Positions 1 to 9,599 of a DNA stretch of 64,000 nt are shown here, one piece after another; position 1 is the first letter of the stretch, and each line of letters starts with the position of its first letter. Location of the stretch: contig NZ_SNZW01000018.1 of assembly GCF_004364175.1 (NCBI RefSeq), forward strand, positions 124,001 to 188,000. The letters run 5' to 3'. The DNA comes from Maribacter caenipelagi. Lineage in GTDB: Bacteria; Bacteroidota; Bacteroidia; Flavobacteriales; Flavobacteriaceae. The notes under the pieces are model-generated. The model had not been told where the DNA came from, did not search any database, and was given only the letters and a program-made list of their open reading frames with translations. The translations under genes and the position numbers were made by a program.

Positions 1-38
1 CACCCAACCCTAGCCCCTCCCAAGAGGGGAACAGCTAG
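1..38 (+). repeat. REP-like hairpin repeat, copy 1 (forward)
   Basis: This G/C-rich block in AT-rich DNA has the core CCCCTCCCAAGAGGGG, where CCCCTC pairs with GAGGGG around a CCAA loop. It is followed by AACAGCTAG, shared with the copy at 728. The left end is at the window edge and reads CACCCAACCC instead of ACCCACCCC, so this copy is slightly diverged. It pairs in inverted orientation with the copy at 124-156, enclosing about 85 AT-rich bases. Confidence 0.85.
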
Positions 39-123
39 CGTCTTTAATTAAAATATATTCTAACAATAATTTTATGAAAACAGAAGTTTCAACTAACTCT
101 AGCTTCGCAATCAATAACGTACT

Positions 124-156
124 TCTCCCCTCTTGGGAGGGGATTGAGGGGTGGGT
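124..156 (-). repeat. REP-like hairpin repeat, copy 2 (reverse)
   Basis: This is the reverse-orientation copy, with core CCCCTCTTGGGAGGGG followed by ATTGAGGGGTGGGT. The similarity to the copy at 1247-1280 continues past the core into RCTACGRTG. In this copy that tail contains the ATG of the DUF559 gene at 163, so the gene starts directly at the repeat edge. Confidence 0.9.
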
Positions 157-162
157 ACTACG

Positions 163-534
163 ATGAGAAAGATTATTCCGTATAACCCAAATTTAGTTGA
201 ACTCGCTAGAACATTAAGAAACAACATGACCCTTGGTGAAATTGTGCTATGGAGAGAAATCAAAGGTAAAAAGCTAGGTCAAAAATTTAGTAGACAAATT
301 CCTATCGATCAATATATAGTTGATTTTTATTGCAAAGATCTTCAGCTCGCCATAGAAGTAGATGGCAGTATTCACTTTAAAGAAGGACATGAAGAAAAAG
401 ATAAAAAAAGGCAAGCACGCTTAGAATTTTTAGGTGTGTATGTGCTCAGGTTTTCAGATACCGATGTAAAGAATAATTTAAGCTTTGTTTTAGAAGAGAT
501 TAAAGTAATAATTGAGAGATTAGAACTAACATGA
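163..534 (+). CDS. DUF559 endonuclease-like protein inside a repeat cluster
   Basis: This 123-residue protein belongs to the DUF559 family, which is related to the Vsr/PD-(D/E)XK restriction-endonuclease fold. The sequence shows the family signature: an N-terminal helix (ARTLRNNMTLGE, WREIK), then KFSRQIPIDQYIVDFYC, LAIEVDGSIH and VLRFSD. The acidic residues of VDF and EVDG are the likely metal ligands. The open frame extends to a GTG at 151, but those codons lie in the repeat, so I chose the ATG at 163. Its stop at 532-534 is immediately followed by another repeat at 535, so repeats abut both ends of the gene in inverted orientation. DNA cleavage is inferred from the family. A role in repeat spread is my hypothesis; the alternative is a stand-alone nuclease that happens to sit among repeats. 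Confidence 0.85.
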   Translation: MRKIIPYNPNLVELARTLRNNMTLGEIVLWREIKGKKLGQKFSRQIPIDQYIVDFYCKDLQLAIEVDGSIHFKEGHEEKDKKRQARLEFLGVYVLRFSDTDVKNNLSFVLEEIKVIIERLELT

Positions 535-567
535 ACCCACCCCTTGCCCCTCCCAAGAGGGGAATAG
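535..567 (+). repeat. REP-like hairpin repeat, copy 3 (forward)
   Basis: This forward copy reads ACCCACCCCTTGCCCC and then the CCCCTC-CCAA-GAGGGG hairpin. It begins one base after the stop codon of the DUF559 gene. It is inverted relative to copy 2 on the other side of the gene and pairs outward with copy 4 at 652-684. Confidence 0.9.
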
Positions 568-651
568 ATCGTTACTTTTATTGGGTATTTTAGACAAAAT
601 AGATGTGGTGGCCCTTAACACCTATTCCCCCAAAGCAACCAAAAACGAAAA

Positions 652-684
652 CCTCCCCTCTCGGGAGGGGATTGAGGGGTGGGT
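652..684 (-). repeat. REP-like hairpin repeat, copy 4 (reverse)
   Basis: This reverse copy has core CCCCTCTCGGGAGGGG, followed by ATTGAGGGGTGGGT. The loop differs from other copies (TCGG instead of TTGG) while the six-base stem is kept, which fits selection on the hairpin rather than on the exact sequence. Confidence 0.9.
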
Positions 685-727
685 GATCGGGTGATGAAGG
701 TTTCATTGAACATACTAACCCAAAAGA

Positions 728-763
728 ACCCACCCCTAGCCCTCCCAAGAGGGGAACAGCTAG
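728..763 (+). repeat. REP-like hairpin repeat, copy 5 (forward)
   Basis: This forward copy lacks one C in the left stem (AGCCCTCCCAAGAGGGG) and continues into AACAGCTAG like copy 1. It has no reverse partner before the next gene at 842, so it is an unpaired unit. Confidence 0.88.
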
Positions 764-841
764 TCACTACAATTGAATAATTGCATACCAATACCCATTA
801 CCTCACCCAACACTGGTATCTTGCATGTATAAATTACAATT

Positions 842-1066
842 ATGAAAATCAATTTATTGTCTTGTGATGCCCCAAGACCAGACAGAAGAGCTATTGCCAA
901 TTGTATTGTAGAGATATCGCCTAGCTGTAGTGCATCGCTAGCAAATGAACTTACCGATATACTTTTAGAAGGTGATGCCGTTGACATAGAATTGGATGAT
1001 AAAAATACCGGTTCCGCATTACGGGCCTTACGAAAGCTTAGTATTGACTATGAAATTATAGAATAA
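842..1066 (+). CDS. Small hypothetical protein, L7/L12-C-domain-like pattern
   Basis: This 74-residue protein is acidic and has no signal peptide. The order of elements is a beta-strand (KINLLSC), a helix (RRAIANCIVEIS), a helix (SLANELTDILLEG), a strand (AVDIEL), a helix (TGSALRALRKL) and a strand (DYEIIE). The ending resembles the C-terminal domain of ribosomal protein L7/L12 and ClpS-like folds, which is a weak pattern match and not a firm assignment. It lies between repeat copies 5 and 6, the latter beginning three bases after the stop. Function is unknown. A complete open frame, a good ATG and a sensible secondary-structure pattern argue that it is real. Confidence 0.6.
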   Translation: MKINLLSCDAPRPDRRAIANCIVEISPSCSASLANELTDILLEGDAVDIELDDKNTGSALRALRKLSIDYEIIE

Positions 1067-1069
1067 AAT

Positions 1070-1104
1070 ACCCACCCCTAGCCCCTCCCAAGAGGGGAAC
1101 AGCT
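1070..1104 (+). repeat. REP-like hairpin repeat, copy 6 (forward)
   Basis: This forward copy is ACCCACCCCTAGCCCC plus the CCCCTC-CCAA-GAGGGG hairpin and AACAGCT. It starts three bases after the stop of the small ORF and pairs with the reverse copy at 1247-1280. The 142 bases between them show no gene. Confidence 0.9.
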
Positions 1105-1246
1105 TTTAGTTATCATTCATCTTTTTAGATTAAGAACATATATCAACACCAAATTGCGCAATGGCACCCTTTAGGGTCTGGGCGAGCGCTGGCATTATAA
1201 AAACCAATCTCCCCAACCACCAAAAAACCCACAACCAAAAACGCAA

Positions 1247-1280
1247 TTCTCCCCTCTTGGGAGGGGATTAAGGGGTGGGT
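1247..1280 (-). repeat. REP-like hairpin repeat, copy 7 (reverse)
   Basis: This reverse copy has core CCCCTCTTGGGAGGGG and ATTAAGGGGTGGGT, followed by GCTACGGTG. Its tail matches the sequence around the DUF559 start codon at 157-165. It is the last copy of the cluster; 1281-1444 holds no recognisable gene. Confidence 0.9.
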
Positions 1281-1500: not shown

Positions 1501-2199
1501 ATGGACATTCATAAAATTGACAATACAAGTCTTTCTAAACTACCTACAGGAAGTTGTTGTGAAATTAATTGTATCTATATAAAGATTAAAGATTTTAGAC
1601 CAATAGTTGACGAATTTGAGAAACATATTTGTGATACAAATTGGATAAAAAATCTTGACGAAATATCACAGATAACTTTTCGAGCTACTTCAAAAAAAAC
1701 TATTGATAAAATTGTAAATGAAATAATTGCTAAAATATCTTCAAATGTAAATACTGAAATTGGAGAATTTATTGTTTCGTATGCAGCTCAGCAAGCTTTA
1801 GAAATTGAACATTCTCATAAATTAATTCCGTTAGCTGAATTACTTAAAGAAAAAATTACAGGAAACCCTGGTTTTGACTATCATTCTATAAGTTCTAAGA
1901 GTTATTTAGTTTTTGGAGAGGCAAAGTTTAGTTTAGAAGGAACTCCAAGAGCCAAAGCCTTAAATCAAATAATTGAATTTATTGGAGACAGAGATAGCTC
2001 TGAATTACTATCCTTACTTCCTTTTTTAGATTCAACAACCAAACAAAATATCATAGATAATAAAAAAGGATATTCAGCTGCTTTTTCACATAATAATGAA
2101 AACATAATTGATACACTTAATAATGCTCTTGATTCAGAACCAATAAAGGAGATTATTAAATATAATGAACTTTATCTAATCGCAGTTGAATTATGTTAA
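1501..2199 (+). CDS. hamA: HamA/AbpA-like (DUF1837) nuclease subunit, Hachiman-type defence
   Basis: This 232-residue protein matches the DUF1837 effector of Hachiman/AbpAB anti-phage systems. Visible family features are the helix around GEFIVSYAAQQAL (residue 88 onward), the strand region GFDYHS at 124-129 and LVFGEAK at 136-142. D126, E140 and K142 fit the PD-(D/E)XK catalytic set, and the E-x-K pair is the one known to be needed for HamA nuclease activity. In the family, HamA is held inactive by the helicase HamB and degrades DNA when HamB senses aberrant DNA. The gene overlaps hamB by seven bases, so translation is probably coupled. It is visibly AT-rich and lies in an accessory island. 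It is slightly short for the family, but no key residue is missing. Confidence 0.85.
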   Translation: MDIHKIDNTSLSKLPTGSCCEINCIYIKIKDFRPIVDEFEKHICDTNWIKNLDEISQITFRATSKKTIDKIVNEIIAKISSNVNTEIGEFIVSYAAQQALEIEHSHKLIPLAELLKEKITGNPGFDYHSISSKSYLVFGEAKFSLEGTPRAKALNQIIEFIGDRDSSELLSLLPFLDSTTKQNIIDNKKGYSAAFSHNNENIIDTLNNALDSEPIKEIIKYNELYLIAVELC

Positions 2200-4535
2200 G
2201 TGAAATAATATTCAACCAAGATATTGACAATGATTTAATAAAAGAAATACTTTATGATTTTCATAAAAATGGTCCAATTGACAATAGCCATCTAGAAACT
2301 TTATCGTATCTGAAAAAATATAATGCCGATTCTTTCAAAAAATATGAATCTAAGCTAATGTTTCTTATGGGTTTGTTTTACAAAACAGAAGAACCAAATT
2401 CGTTCATAGAAGCAATTTATAATGCATATGCCGAGACAATAATGTCAGAAACAGGCCACAATTTCACTCCTGTACAAGCAGATGCGTATCTTTCAATAAA
2501 AAAATACACTAATTTTTCATTCTCAGCACCAACAAGTGCAGGTAAATCATTTTTATTTCAAGAATTAATTAAAGAAACTCAAGGAGATATCATTATCATC
2601 TTGCCATCAAGAGCTCTGATTTCAGAGTACTTAATTAAAGTCAAAAAACTGGTATCAAAAGAAACTTTAGTTCTCCAATTCATTGAAGTAGTAAATACAA
2701 AAAGAACTAAAAATAGGATTTATATAATAACACCTGAAAGAGGTGAAGAATTGTTTAAAAATATTCCAAAACTAAATGTAGAATTAATTTTACTAGATGA
2801 AGCCCAAATTTCGGAAGAAGGTATAAGAGGAATGAAATTTGATTCTCTAGTCAGAAGAATTGACAAAAAATTAAGCAATATAAAAAAGGTATTTACGCAT
2901 CCTTTTATACTTAACCCTGAAGCACAATTTCAAAAGCATAATATCACACAGAGTACCGATTCGGAAACATATAATCAAAAAACAGTTGGTAAAATTTTCA
3001 TTGAGCATTCAAAGAGTAACTTTAAATATTTTTCACCATTTCAAGATGAAATGAATGGAAAAAAAATTGAAGGTGATATTATTAAAGAAACCATTAAAAA
3101 TAATGGCACAGCTCTAATTTACATTTCAAAAGCAAAAATATATAGTGGAGATTTTATTGAGTCTTTTGCAGACTATATCGAATTATGTCCAATAATAACC
3201 GATAAAGAAAGTTTAAGTTTTATTGAAAAAATAGAAGCCTTTTTTGGAACCAAAGATGATAGTGAAAAGAGTTCTATGCTTATCTACTTAATGAAAAGAG
3301 GTATTGTAATTCATCACGGTTCAATTCCTTTAAACGCAAGATTAATAATTGAAGATTTTGTAAATAGTCATCACGCTAAAATCTGTTTTTCAACTTCTAC
3401 ATTAATTCAAGGTATTAATATGCCATTTGATATAATTTGGATTAACAACTTTACTTTCAGAGGCAATGAAGATCAAAAGACTTTAAATTTAAAAAATTTA
3501 ATAGGGCGAGCTGGTAGAGTAACACTTGCAGACAATCACTTTGATTATGGTTATGTCGTGGTAGAGAGTAGAAACAAGCGAACTTTTATAAATAGATTAA
3601 ATACTGAATCATCATTATCACCATTATCAAATCTTGATAACCCGACAGACCCAAATAACGAAGACTTTATTGATATAGTTGATGCAATAAAAAATGACAC
3701 TTTTAATTCTGAATTACAGTTAACAGAAAGTCAAATAACACGAATTGAAAAAGCAGACTTAGATACACAAATCTCTTTTATTTTAGACAACTTTTTAAAC
3801 CAAGAGTTAGAGCCTTTAACAGTAAAAGAATATTATGTATTAACTGACTATAAAAGAAAAAAAATAAAGAAAGCACTTGAAAATATTTATACAGCCCATT
3901 TAAGACGAACTGAATTTGGTGATGGTGAAAAAAGTGTCCTAAGTGCATCTATACCCATTTTACTTTGGCAAATTCAAGGAAAGTCTTTTGCTGAAATAAT
4001 TTCATTGAGATACGCATTTTTATCTGAGAAAGATTTTAGACGAAAGTTAAGACGTAAGCTGAAAAATGAGGAAATTTCAATAAGTGAATTTAAAAAGCAA
4101 CTTTTTGAAAAAAAAGTAAGATTTTCTTGCATAGCCGAAGCTCTTCCAAATAAAAGTTTTAAAAGACCAGTACCTTTATTCAATAGAAACACAAGTGTAA
4201 CTGATATAGATTTTGATACAATAATTTATGACACTTATGATTATATTGACAAAGTTCTTTCTCTTTCTGTAAAAGACCCAATATCTAGTGCGTTAATACT
4301 TTACTTTGAAAAAACAAATGATAAAAGGTCACTTATACTAAGTAATTATATAAAATATGGTACTAATGACGAAACAGAAATTTGGCTCTTGAAATATGGG
4401 TTTAGTTTTGAAGATATAGAGCTAATTATTGGACATATAGAAAGAATAGATGAAACAGAAATAATATTTAAAAAGTCAATTAATAAATTTATTACTAACC
4501 CAGAAAATTACAAGTTAATTGAACGATATATATAA
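2193..4535 (+). CDS. hamB: HamB-like superfamily 2 helicase, Hachiman-type defence
   Basis: This 780-residue DEAD/DEAH-type (Ski2-like) helicase carries a full set of SF2 motifs. These are a Q-motif-like FTPVQADA (91-98), Walker A APTSAGKS (112-119), motif II LDEAQ (201-205), the second RecA-fold strand IVIHHGSIP (371-379), TSTLIQGINMP (401-411) and motif VI NLIGRAGR (435-442). About 330 residues follow that I cannot assign to a domain. In Hachiman, HamB is the ATP-driven DNA sensor that restrains and releases the nuclease HamA. The ATG lies inside the last codons of hamA (overlap 2193-2199). The reading frame is intact, so the system looks functional. Sequence after the stop folds into hairpins rather than a simple terminator. 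Confidence 0.87.
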   Translation: MLSEIIFNQDIDNDLIKEILYDFHKNGPIDNSHLETLSYLKKYNADSFKKYESKLMFLMGLFYKTEEPNSFIEAIYNAYAETIMSETGHNFTPVQADAYLSIKKYTNFSFSAPTSAGKSFLFQELIKETQGDIIIILPSRALISEYLIKVKKLVSKETLVLQFIEVVNTKRTKNRIYIITPERGEELFKNIPKLNVELILLDEAQISEEGIRGMKFDSLVRRIDKKLSNIKKVFTHPFILNPEAQFQKHNITQSTDSETYNQKTVGKIFIEHSKSNFKYFSPFQDEMNGKKIEGDIIKETIKNNGTALIYISKAKIYSGDFIESFADYIELCPIITDKESLSFIEKIEAFFGTKDDSEKSSMLIYLMKRGIVIHHGSIPLNARLIIEDFVNSHHAKICFSTSTLIQGINMPFDIIWINNFTFRGNEDQKTLNLKNLIGRAGRVTLADNHFDYGYVVVESRNKRTFINRLNTESSLSPLSNLDNPTDPNNEDFIDIVDAIKNDTFNSELQLTESQITRIEKADLDTQISFILDNFLNQELEPLTVKEYYVLTDYKRKKIKKALENIYTAHLRRTEFGDGEKSVLSASIPILLWQIQGKSFAEIISLRYAFLSEKDFRRKLRRKLKNEEISISEFKKQLFEKKVRFSCIAEALPNKSFKRPVPLFNRNTSVTDIDFDTIIYDTYDYIDKVLSLSVKDPISSALILYFEKTNDKRSLILSNYIKYGTNDETEIWLLKYGFSFEDIELIIGHIERIDETEIIFKKSINKFITNPENYKLIERYI

Positions 4536-8302: not shown

Positions 8303-8824
8303 ATGAAGCAATGTCTCATCTTGTTTGCATTACTACTTGTTATTTTCTCCTCTTCATGCCAACAAGAAAAGAAAGCATCAGGTGATAATGTAACTAATAT
8401 ATGGACATCCTTTTTATCTGATTTAGAGGCTGAGGACAAGGAAGCTTTTAAAAATTCATCTGCCGAGACGATACGTTGCTATGATTGTTTAGAGAATACA
8501 CCATCTGAAGTGCAACAAATGAGCATCCTAAGAGAACAAGATTCCCTTTGGTACGATAAAATTTACGAAGACCTCATTTATATACCCATTGACAGTTTTA
8601 TAGCCAATGATTATGACATCCTATTTAATCCGCAGTTTATAAACATCCTTCAAGAAAATGAAACTGTTTATTTAAGCGAACAAAAAGAGGGGATAACCTA
8701 TGCGCACATACTTGTTACAACAACACCACCGACCGTATTTTTCGAAGGTGGTCAACATAGCTTTTCATTTGTAAAAGAGCCGAACGGATATTTTAAACTT
8801 ACCGAGATCAGCACCATCCCCTAA
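8303..8824 (+). CDS. Hypothetical lipoprotein
   Basis: This 173-residue predicted lipoprotein has lipobox FSSSC (Cys19). The mature part begins with a helical region NIWTSFLSDLEAEDKEAFKNSSAETIRCYDC and ends in strand segments (TYAHILVTTTPPTVFFEGGQHSFSFVKE, YFKLTEIS). This is the arrangement of small NTF2-like or DUF4440-like lipoproteins, but I cannot name the family. It ends 13 bases from the convergent LytTR regulator gene, with no obvious terminator between them. Confidence 0.75.
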   Translation: MKQCLILFALLLVIFSSSCQQEKKASGDNVTNIWTSFLSDLEAEDKEAFKNSSAETIRCYDCLENTPSEVQQMSILREQDSLWYDKIYEDLIYIPIDSFIANDYDILFNPQFINILQENETVYLSEQKEGITYAHILVTTTPPTVFFEGGQHSFSFVKEPNGYFKLTEISTIP

Positions 8825-8837
8825 AAGAAGAAGCACC

Positions 8838-9599
8838 TTAAGTTCCCATCCAATTTTTAAAATCCGACGCTTTTGCCTTGCTCACTACAATACGCTCGCT
8901 ACACACCGGGTGAACTTCTACCAACAACTTGCTGTTAAAATGAAATTTAATAGCGGTTATAGCCTCTCTACGTACTATAAACTGTCTGTTTGCCCTATAG
9001 AACACCTGGGGGTCTAAAGCCTCTTCTATGTCTTCTAATTTAATATCGAGCACATAAGAACGCTCTTGTACCGTTACCGCTTTTACAAGACCAGTATCTA
9101 TAAAGAAATAGGCTATATCGGCAGTTTTTACAGGTAACAATTGGTCGCCCAAACCCACCAAGAATGTCTGTTTAAAATTTGCAGGTTTGTGCTGTATTAG
9201 ATGCATTAGACTATGCATTTGCTGCTCATCGATACCATTTTGGTGGTTTTGAGCTTCAAAACGATCTAAGGCATCTGACAGTTCTTCTTGATCGATCGGC
9301 TTCAATAAATAATCAATGCTATTTACCTTAAATGCCTTTAATGCATATTGATCATATGCCGTAGTAAATATGATGGGAATCTTGATTTCTACCTGATCAA
9401 AAATCTCGAACGAAATACCGTCTGCCAAATGAATATCCATAAATACCAAAACACCTTCATGCGGCTTTGAAAAATATGCTACGGTCGCCTTTACCGTATC
9501 TAAAACGGCTATAACCTCGATTGCAGGGTTGATCTTCGTTAACAGATATGCCAGGTTATCGCTTGCAGCAAGTTCGTCTTCTACTAGTATTACTTTCAT
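8838..9599 (-). CDS. LytTR-family response regulator
   Basis: This 253-residue regulator has a receiver domain (about 1-120) with the acidic pair E7/D8, phosphoacceptor D55 in FMDIHL, T79/T80 in FTTAYDQYALKAF and K99 in LLKPI. The LytTR DNA-binding domain follows (about 145-250), containing FLVGLGDQLLPVKTADIAYF, VFYRANRQFIVRREAI and VVSKAKASDFKNWM. It acts as a transcription factor controlled by the kinase encoded just upstream. The ATG overlaps the kinase stop by four bases (ATGA), so the two are co-translated. Target genes cannot be read from the sequence. Confidence 0.93.
   Translation of the reverse strand: MKVILVEDELAASDNLAYLLTKINPAIEVIAVLDTVKATVAYFSKPHEGVLVFMDIHLADGISFEIFDQVEIKIPIIFTTAYDQYALKAFKVNSIDYLLKPIDQEELSDALDRFEAQNHQNGIDEQQMHSLMHLIQHKPANFKQTFLVGLGDQLLPVKTADIAYFFIDTGLVKAVTVQERSYVLDIKLEDIEEALDPQVFYRANRQFIVRREAITAIKFHFNSKLLVEVHPVCSERIVVSKAKASDFKNWMGT

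Follow-up and report, generated by a model that had tools for sequence, protein, structure and literature searches.

The first 1,281 nucleotides of the window, the 64,000-nucleotide stretch of the Maribacter caenipelagi genome analysed here, probably represent one copy of a nuclease-plus-repeat system, in which a small DUF559 protein is the candidate cognate enzyme of the hairpin repeats around it and a functional counterpart of RAYT built on an unrelated nuclease. A preliminary description of the locus had proposed this REP/RAYT logic with DUF559 in the place of the transposase, and the proposal is now supported beyond the locus by the association of gene and repeats across genomes, their adjacency, their occurrence in other phyla and the agreement between repeat classes and protein clades.

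Six exact copies of the 16-base core CCCCTCNNNNGAGGGG (positions 14-29, 127-142, 547-562, 655-670, 1082-1097 and 1251-1266) and one degenerate core were found between positions 1 and 1281 of the window, in agreement with the seven hairpin repeats described previously. Their sequence also matches the earlier account of a one-sided tail, ACCCACCCC, and of three inverted pairs (1-156, 535-685 and 1070-1281). The first pair is formed by repeat 1 (1-31, forward strand), a tail-hairpin unit with the slightly degenerate tail ACCCAACCC, and repeat 2 (125-156, reverse strand), in which the hairpin is followed by the tail AGGGGTGGGT pointing into the DUF559 gene. This standalone gene of 123 codons occupies positions 163-534 of the forward strand (ATG at 163; PF04480, E 2.1e-29). 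The hairpin of repeat 2 ends 19 bases 5' of the ATG and the tail of repeat 3 (535-564, forward) begins immediately 3' of the TGA stop, so that, as had been claimed, inverted repeats adjoin the gene on both sides. An in-frame GTG at 151, upstream of the ATG, sits in the repeat tail. Repeat 3 is the left half of the second pair and repeat 4 (653-685, reverse) its right half, while repeat 6 (1070-1099, forward) and repeat 7 (1249-1281, reverse) are the corresponding halves of the third. Repeat 5 (728-756, forward) carries the core that has lost one base (740-754; two mismatches in the core listing). The strict alternation of orientation in the preliminary description did not hold, since the order is + - + - + + -.

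The count of exact cores across the 4.28-Mb genome, proposed earlier as a check, gave 27 copies, all confined to three places on two contigs: a tandem array of 11 cores with a spacing of mostly 111-113 (C3:513310-514477), two cores at C7:45199-45338 and 14 cores at C7:117649-125266. The window starts inside the last and largest of these clusters (about C7:117637 to C7:125281), which extends leftwards beyond the window. A chance origin of the repeats in this genome was rejected because the reversed pattern gave 0 matches against these 27, and a genome-wide REP family was rejected as well, the cores lying in three places only; the term BIME-like, applied previously to the cluster, fits it loosely.

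The repeat unit consists of the tail (ACCCACCCCT), a few bases and the hairpin CCCCTC NNNN GAGGGG. Paired units face each other with their tails outward, mostly 112-130 bases apart, and enclose an AT-rich spacer. These short, imperfect, hairpin-capable palindromes, present as single units or inverted pairs, have the form of REPs and REPINs. Folded as single strands, the pairs at 536-684 and 7-155 reach -33.8 kcal/mol (z -4.6) and -29.2 kcal/mol (z -5.9), respectively. Within arrays, the linkers between pairs measure 42-44 bases in 11 of the 13 loci that have linkers and 85-91 bases in the other two. The DUF559 gene sits where a linker would be, and both repeat tails therefore point into it. 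In the ten genus loci with both repeats recognised, the two stand 404-416 bases apart with the gene between them, and the distance from hairpin end to start codon is 19 bases in 12 of the 20 genes whose flanks are labelled A1 (see below). Prefix identity between linkers and the DUF559 gene averages 9.3 of 17 positions, compared with 4.5 for control windows, and no more than 10 of 22 linkers outscore all interior windows of the gene; these values are only suggestive of linkers being internally deleted DUF559 elements.

The window protein passes the curated cut-off of Pfam PF04480 (102 bits against 20.6), and its AlphaFold model has a pLDDT of 91.9. Residues D54, E65, D67, G68, H71 and D80 are invariant in 47 aligned sequences including the window protein, as is the motif E-x-D-G-x-x-H. 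The nearest folds among the matches listed are NGO0050 (3hrl), whose PDB entry name is putative endonuclease-like protein, I-Bth0305I (3r3p) and Vsr. The protein thus keeps a predicted Vsr/EDxHD nuclease fold together with candidate active-site residues, which sharpens the earlier designation of a PD-(D/E)XK-like nuclease to the Vsr/EDxHD homing-nuclease branch. I-Bth0305I works on behalf of an intron and Vsr acts in the repair of T:G mismatches; neither context is seen here. The context of the gonococcal DUF559 protein was viewed in one record stretch. In several genomes, the DUF559 gene extends into the downstream repeat, and the C-terminus of the protein is therefore the repeat's own translation (e.g. 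TPSPSQEGN).

The association was followed through 149 genomes of the family to which the window organism belongs, representing 148 genera. DUF559 genes were counted as standalone if they covered 90 or more profile positions and their frame did not exceed 250 codons, and such genes occur in 40 of the 149 genomes. The general (class-A) repeat pattern, ACCCCT-N2-7-CCCCT-N2-14-AGGGG, is found in 42 genomes, and its reversed control gives single matches in three. Among genomes with at least two tail-hairpin repeats, 23 of 26 carry a standalone DUF559 gene (40 of 149 overall; p 2.4e-13, in statistics that ignore kinship). With at least three repeats the proportion is 17 of 19, or 18 of 19 if the repeat-bearing genome G047 is counted, in which the DUF559 pieces are cut by contig ends. 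The narrow oriented pattern CACCCCTNNCCCCTC marks 15 of the 149 genomes, every one of which has a DUF559 match of some kind, standalone in 11. Genomes with long or partial DUF559 matches only show no association with the repeats (1 of 29). Genomes with many repeats and no DUF559 gene, named in the preliminary description as evidence against the proposal, are accordingly rare: beyond the 23 genomes with standalone genes and the fragmented case of G047, the exceptions are G039 (four copies) and G093 (two copies). The class-A pattern is absent from 12 of the 40 genomes with standalone DUF559, most of which, G011 excepted, have proteins of clade B or C. At the level of single genes, 48 of 58 standalone DUF559 genes have a G/C-rich hairpin no more than 160 bases away (upstream of 39 and downstream of 35), compared with 48 of 258 control ORFs from the same loci, the opposite of a DUF559 gene that in most relatives lacks nearby repeats. 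Likewise, 32 of 56 scorable standalone genes (two rows were unscorable) but none of seven long genes have an inverted-flank similarity above the 95% point set by 406 control ORFs, and DUF559 scores are higher than those of the controls (p 4e-15).

The repeats are clustered in the genome of the window and dispersed in some others. Genome G033 has 137 matches to the general pattern, and all nine cores sampled from three 20-kb stretches of it lie outside ORFs, with ORFs of at least 100 codons covering 86% of the sequence. Within Maribacter, the interval between a 168-codon and a 424-codon gene holds 0 to 11 exact cores over nine species and is 1.5 and 2.6 kb long in two of them; the change in copy number at this site looks partly like tandem amplification. 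Two species (L122 and L123) lack both DUF559 and cores in the stretch, and they are weak empty sites because the 586-codon gene, at 71-73% identity, is the sole gene that can still be recognised there. In this limited comparison of sites with and without units, no target-site duplication was cleanly readable.

Repeat class co-varies with DUF559 clade. The standalone proteins of the family fall into clades with distinct N termini (IIPYNP, IHN-K or GMHDGATP), and the gene flanks were assigned to classes A1, A2, A3, B, C or unassigned ('?') by patterns drawn up after the flanks had been read. When these labels are placed on a tree of 75 proteins, 21 changes are required, compared with 46.1 for shuffled labels (0 of 200 shuffles as low). 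Labels A1, A2, B and C each cluster on the tree (0 of 500 shuffles), whereas two of the six labels, A3 and unassigned, show no clustering on it. A test that is independent of labels, covering 57 genes from 40 genomes and 1,575 pairs from different genomes, relates flank similarity to protein similarity with a rho of 0.43 (0 of 2000 permutations), and with a rho of 0.34 (0 of 2000) for dissimilar proteins only. The class-B pattern occurs in nine of the 149 genomes, eight of which have a clade-B DUF559 protein, the ninth being G105. Single class-B matches weigh little, as 8 of the 16 genomes with clade B lack the strict pattern and the reversed control matches 5 of 149; the strongest genomes are G094 with 21 copies and G096 and G129 with nine each. 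In a strict test of the inner stems, 17 of 30 distinct class-B repeats have a perfect stem of at least 5 (shuffles at most 5) and the remaining 13 fail. The class-C pattern is found in five of 149 genomes, four of them with clade C. It is tied to its clade by position and not by dispersal, given that there are only eight matches in total, mostly beside the gene, and that the reversed control matches in three genomes. Behind the 586-codon gene, one and the same site of the chromosome holds a clade-A gene with A1 repeats in G000 and a clade-C gene with ACCCTAAAGGGT repeats in G177 and G155.

The latter exchange can also be read in another way. DUF559 could be a selfish gene of the homing type for which existing repeats serve as landing sites, with the repeats spread by something else: the catalytic domain of the homing endonuclease I-Bth0305I is among its near fold relatives, the gene stands between complete repeat pairs, and two related species hold a different DUF559/repeat pair at one site. 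Such a gene should leave repeat-rich genomes without DUF559, and these number only 2 to 3 of 26; moreover, distinct repeat classes have their own DUF559 clades. Homing into repeats of other origin is for these reasons considered unlikely.

A mobilizing enzyme encoded elsewhere would be another source of repeat spread. A Y1/HUH transposase (RAYT or IS200) may move the repeats, DUF559 being merely carried between them, and PMC3733652 ties the REPs of other bacteria to RAYTs. In the family sample, Y1_Tnp matches are indeed commoner among genomes with at least two repeats (21 of 26 compared with 38 of 123; p 3e-6) and none of the 14 genomes with five or more copies is without one. Yet, of the 106 genomes without any standalone or fragmentary DUF559, 28 have a Y1 match and none of these 28 has two or more repeats. 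DUF559 is thus the better predictor, the association with Y1 being weaker and Y1 alone never accompanied by two repeats. In addition, the repeat pattern is absent within 10-14 kb of four RAYT-like loci inspected in G000, G077 and G134, a selection from many Y1 matches, and repeat class tracks the DUF559 clade. It is therefore quite improbable that a Y1 enzyme alone moves the repeats; a helper contribution in trans by Y1/RAYT enzymes is possible, as Y1 associates with the repeats and accompanies every genome with at least five copies. Least probable is a mismatch-repair (Vsr-like) or defence nuclease regulated or insulated by hairpins that act as bidirectional terminators or self-marks: the DUF559 protein VsrA of Caulobacter is, according to PMC12907096, needed for a DNA-damage response in cells that lack a methyltransferase, and the 19-base spacing of the A1 genes may also point to translational regulation, but neither repair, defence nor termination predicts tens to hundreds of dispersed copies, inward tails on both sides or clade-specific repeat classes.

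The preferred reading, that DUF559 is the cognate enzyme of the repeats, was followed to more distant genomes. Loci were picked by clade-A DUF559 peptide patterns and not by repeats, and the best 80 of 344 were taken; the result pertains to clade A, since the search alignment was of clade A, an alignment of all clades being too diverse. Judged by their titles, these best 80 of 344 loci come from Bacteroidota, cyanobacteria, Scalindua and Brocadiaceae, Chlorobiota, Ignavibacteriales and relatives, and Calditrichaeota; five of them lie in frames of 448 to 975 codons and were retained in the counts. The 67 loci among them that are not from Maribacter were searched for the tail GGGGTGGGT. A tail pointing into the gene is present upstream at 43 of 67 loci (control ORFs 8 of 332) and downstream at 34 of 64 (controls 14 of 372), so that 53 of 67 have at least one inward tail. 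The opposite orientation is seen upstream at 1 of 67 loci (controls 4 of 332) and downstream at 10 of 64 (controls 17 of 372). The downstream cases are expected, as they fit a following inverted partner, which is not what the simple model asks for. For the loci outside Bacteroidota within the best 80 of 344, at least one inward tail is found at 11 of 17 and the opposite orientation downstream at 8 of 17. The exact tail is absent on both sides at 16 of the best 80. The 25 genomes behind 26 of the best 80 loci were also searched as a whole. A stricter oriented pattern is present in 23 of them, with at least three copies in 13 genomes, two in three, one in seven and none in two; the Symploca genome has 185 copies, and the reversed control gives one match in one of the 25 genomes. 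As these genomes were chosen for carrying DUF559, the counts show dispersal and not dependence.

DUF559 genes are also borne by plasmids. Ten of 37 listed records, chosen for variety and read without controls, were examined for their flanks, and recurring G/C-rich words were found in six of them (L240-L244 and L246). Hairpin-like flanks were seen by eye in several further plasmid records of this uncontrolled set of ten. A CGTC frame stands beside the gene in the Novosphingobium record only.

Among known systems, REP/REPIN elements and their RAYT (TnpA-REP) enzymes can be highlighted as the closest in organisation. Both have short hairpins that are tailed on one side, inverted pairs around a spacer, dispersal between genes (here in some genomes), an enzyme gene between repeats and a repeat class bound to an enzyme lineage. 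Two differences set the window system apart: its enzyme is a PD-(D/E)XK Vsr-like nuclease and not an HUH protein, and its repeats have the class-A tail AGGGGTGGGT in place of a GTAG tag. On reading, GTAG is absent from the foot of the hairpin in all seven window repeats, and no HUH/Y1 transposase gene was found beside repeats, the gene in the window being DUF559 and the four RAYT-like loci being free of repeats. With no adjoining HUH enzyme and no GTAG tag, the window system falls outside the RAYT family. A literature search, which left most subscription papers and preprints outside its reach, returned no report tying DUF559 to repeats.

REPs are known from a wide range of bacteria and are sorted in PMC3733652 into GTAG and CGTC super-families. 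The same paper describes CGTC REPs, whose hosts include Bacteroidetes and Alphaproteobacteria, as sequences that 'apparently lack a dedicated transposase' and gives them stems of 8-9 bp. The class-B repeats beside clade-B DUF559 genes resemble this super-family in their CGTC tag, stem-loop and CCA tail, as in the G094 example CCCTCCGTC-hairpin-GCCACC, although many class-B stems are shorter than the 8-9 bp stated there, and the class-A repeats of the window lack the CGTC tag. The strict CGTC/stem-loop/CCA pattern adjoins 5 of 17 clade-B genes, none of 58 other DUF559 genes and 1 of 85 control ORFs; the DUF559 gene on the Novosphingobium plasmid is flanked by a frame that is nearly identical. 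From this adjacency, clade-B DUF559 appears to be the best candidate for the dedicated enzyme of CGTC REPs. A broader and more tentative generalisation, possible but held with less than even confidence, is that DUF559 proteins serve generally as cognate enzymes for a hairpin-repeat super-family that takes in class A with AGGGGTGGGT tails, class B as CGTC REPs and others in Bacteroidota, Cyanobacteriota, Pseudomonadota, Planctomycetota and further phyla. Such repeats would spread by hairpin-directed cutting and repair, with a chemistry unrelated to that of HUH enzymes, and DUF559 would then supply the enzyme that the orphan CGTC REPs lack.

A mechanism can be proposed in which a single-domain nuclease, putatively of the Vsr/EDxHD type, is encoded between hairpin repeats with G-rich tails directed into its gene. 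The protein would recognise hairpin and tail, either as an extruded cruciform or as a single strand during replication, and would nick or cut beside the hairpin, whereupon host repair may copy the unit to new places or enlarge arrays. The tail doubles the G-run of the 3' arm, and as AGGGG is thereby present twice, the 5' arm could pair with either copy; the choice of pairing might define the cut site. The 19-base distance that is frequent between hairpin and ATG would let the hairpin also control translation of the nuclease.

With a small nuclease located among the repeats and varying together with them, the spread of REPs, an open question, becomes directly testable. If the proposal is true, a widespread domain of unknown function would gain a function, and two unrelated nuclease superfamilies would have reached the same kind of partnership with repeats.

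The repeats also occur as tandem arrays. Eleven copies of the exact 16-base hairpin core, mostly spaced 111-113 bases apart, form an array on contig C3 of the window's own genome, G000 (C3:513310-514477, equivalent to 8310-9477 of the extracted locus L009), a contig on which there is no DUF559 match. A tandem array of related repeats is located on contig C1 of genome G039 (L155, 4896-5410), where the repeats alternate with a second hairpin, CCTTCC..GGAAGG. This array-bearing genome carries no standalone DUF559 gene and represents an exception to the association between the repeats and standalone DUF559.

At six loci (L090, L095, L098, L137, L083 and L085), the downstream repeat contains the end of the DUF559 reading frame, and the C-terminal TPSPSQEGN-like tail of the six proteins is translated repeat. 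In L205, L213, L214, L215 and L218, a long open frame of 448 to 975 codons begins with DUF559, and a repeat tail is positioned just upstream. Longer DUF559-bearing frames of about 340-390 aa are present in L042, L044, L048, L049, L057 and L040, and a conserved stretch common to these six loci opens the downstream neighbour. The inverted-flank signal is absent from long DUF559 frames of this kind (0/7). In a Neisseria gonorrhoeae record (L242), a repeated AACCCCAACAGCCGACCCGTCC-type element reminiscent of the published CGTC REPs lies on either side of the gene with the DUF559 match at 4001-4309.

Within the window's repeat cluster, a 74-aa ORF without a match in Pfam or NCBIfam lies between repeats 5 and 6 (842-1066), and an equally long ORF is likewise placed between repeats in L126. 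Two genes directly to the right of the cluster (1501-4535) resemble a Hachiman anti-phage pair. One encodes a 780-aa DEAD-box helicase that matches HamB (PADLOC, E 8e-54); the other, its 232-aa partner, has no matches in Pfam or PADLOC.

Finally, two loci from related Maribacter species (L120 and L121) carry a DUF559 gene of another clade, together with another hairpin, downstream of the 586-codon gene, at the exact site that holds the DUF559 gene of G000. This difference at a common site suggests either that one replaced the other or that both share a hot spot for insertion.
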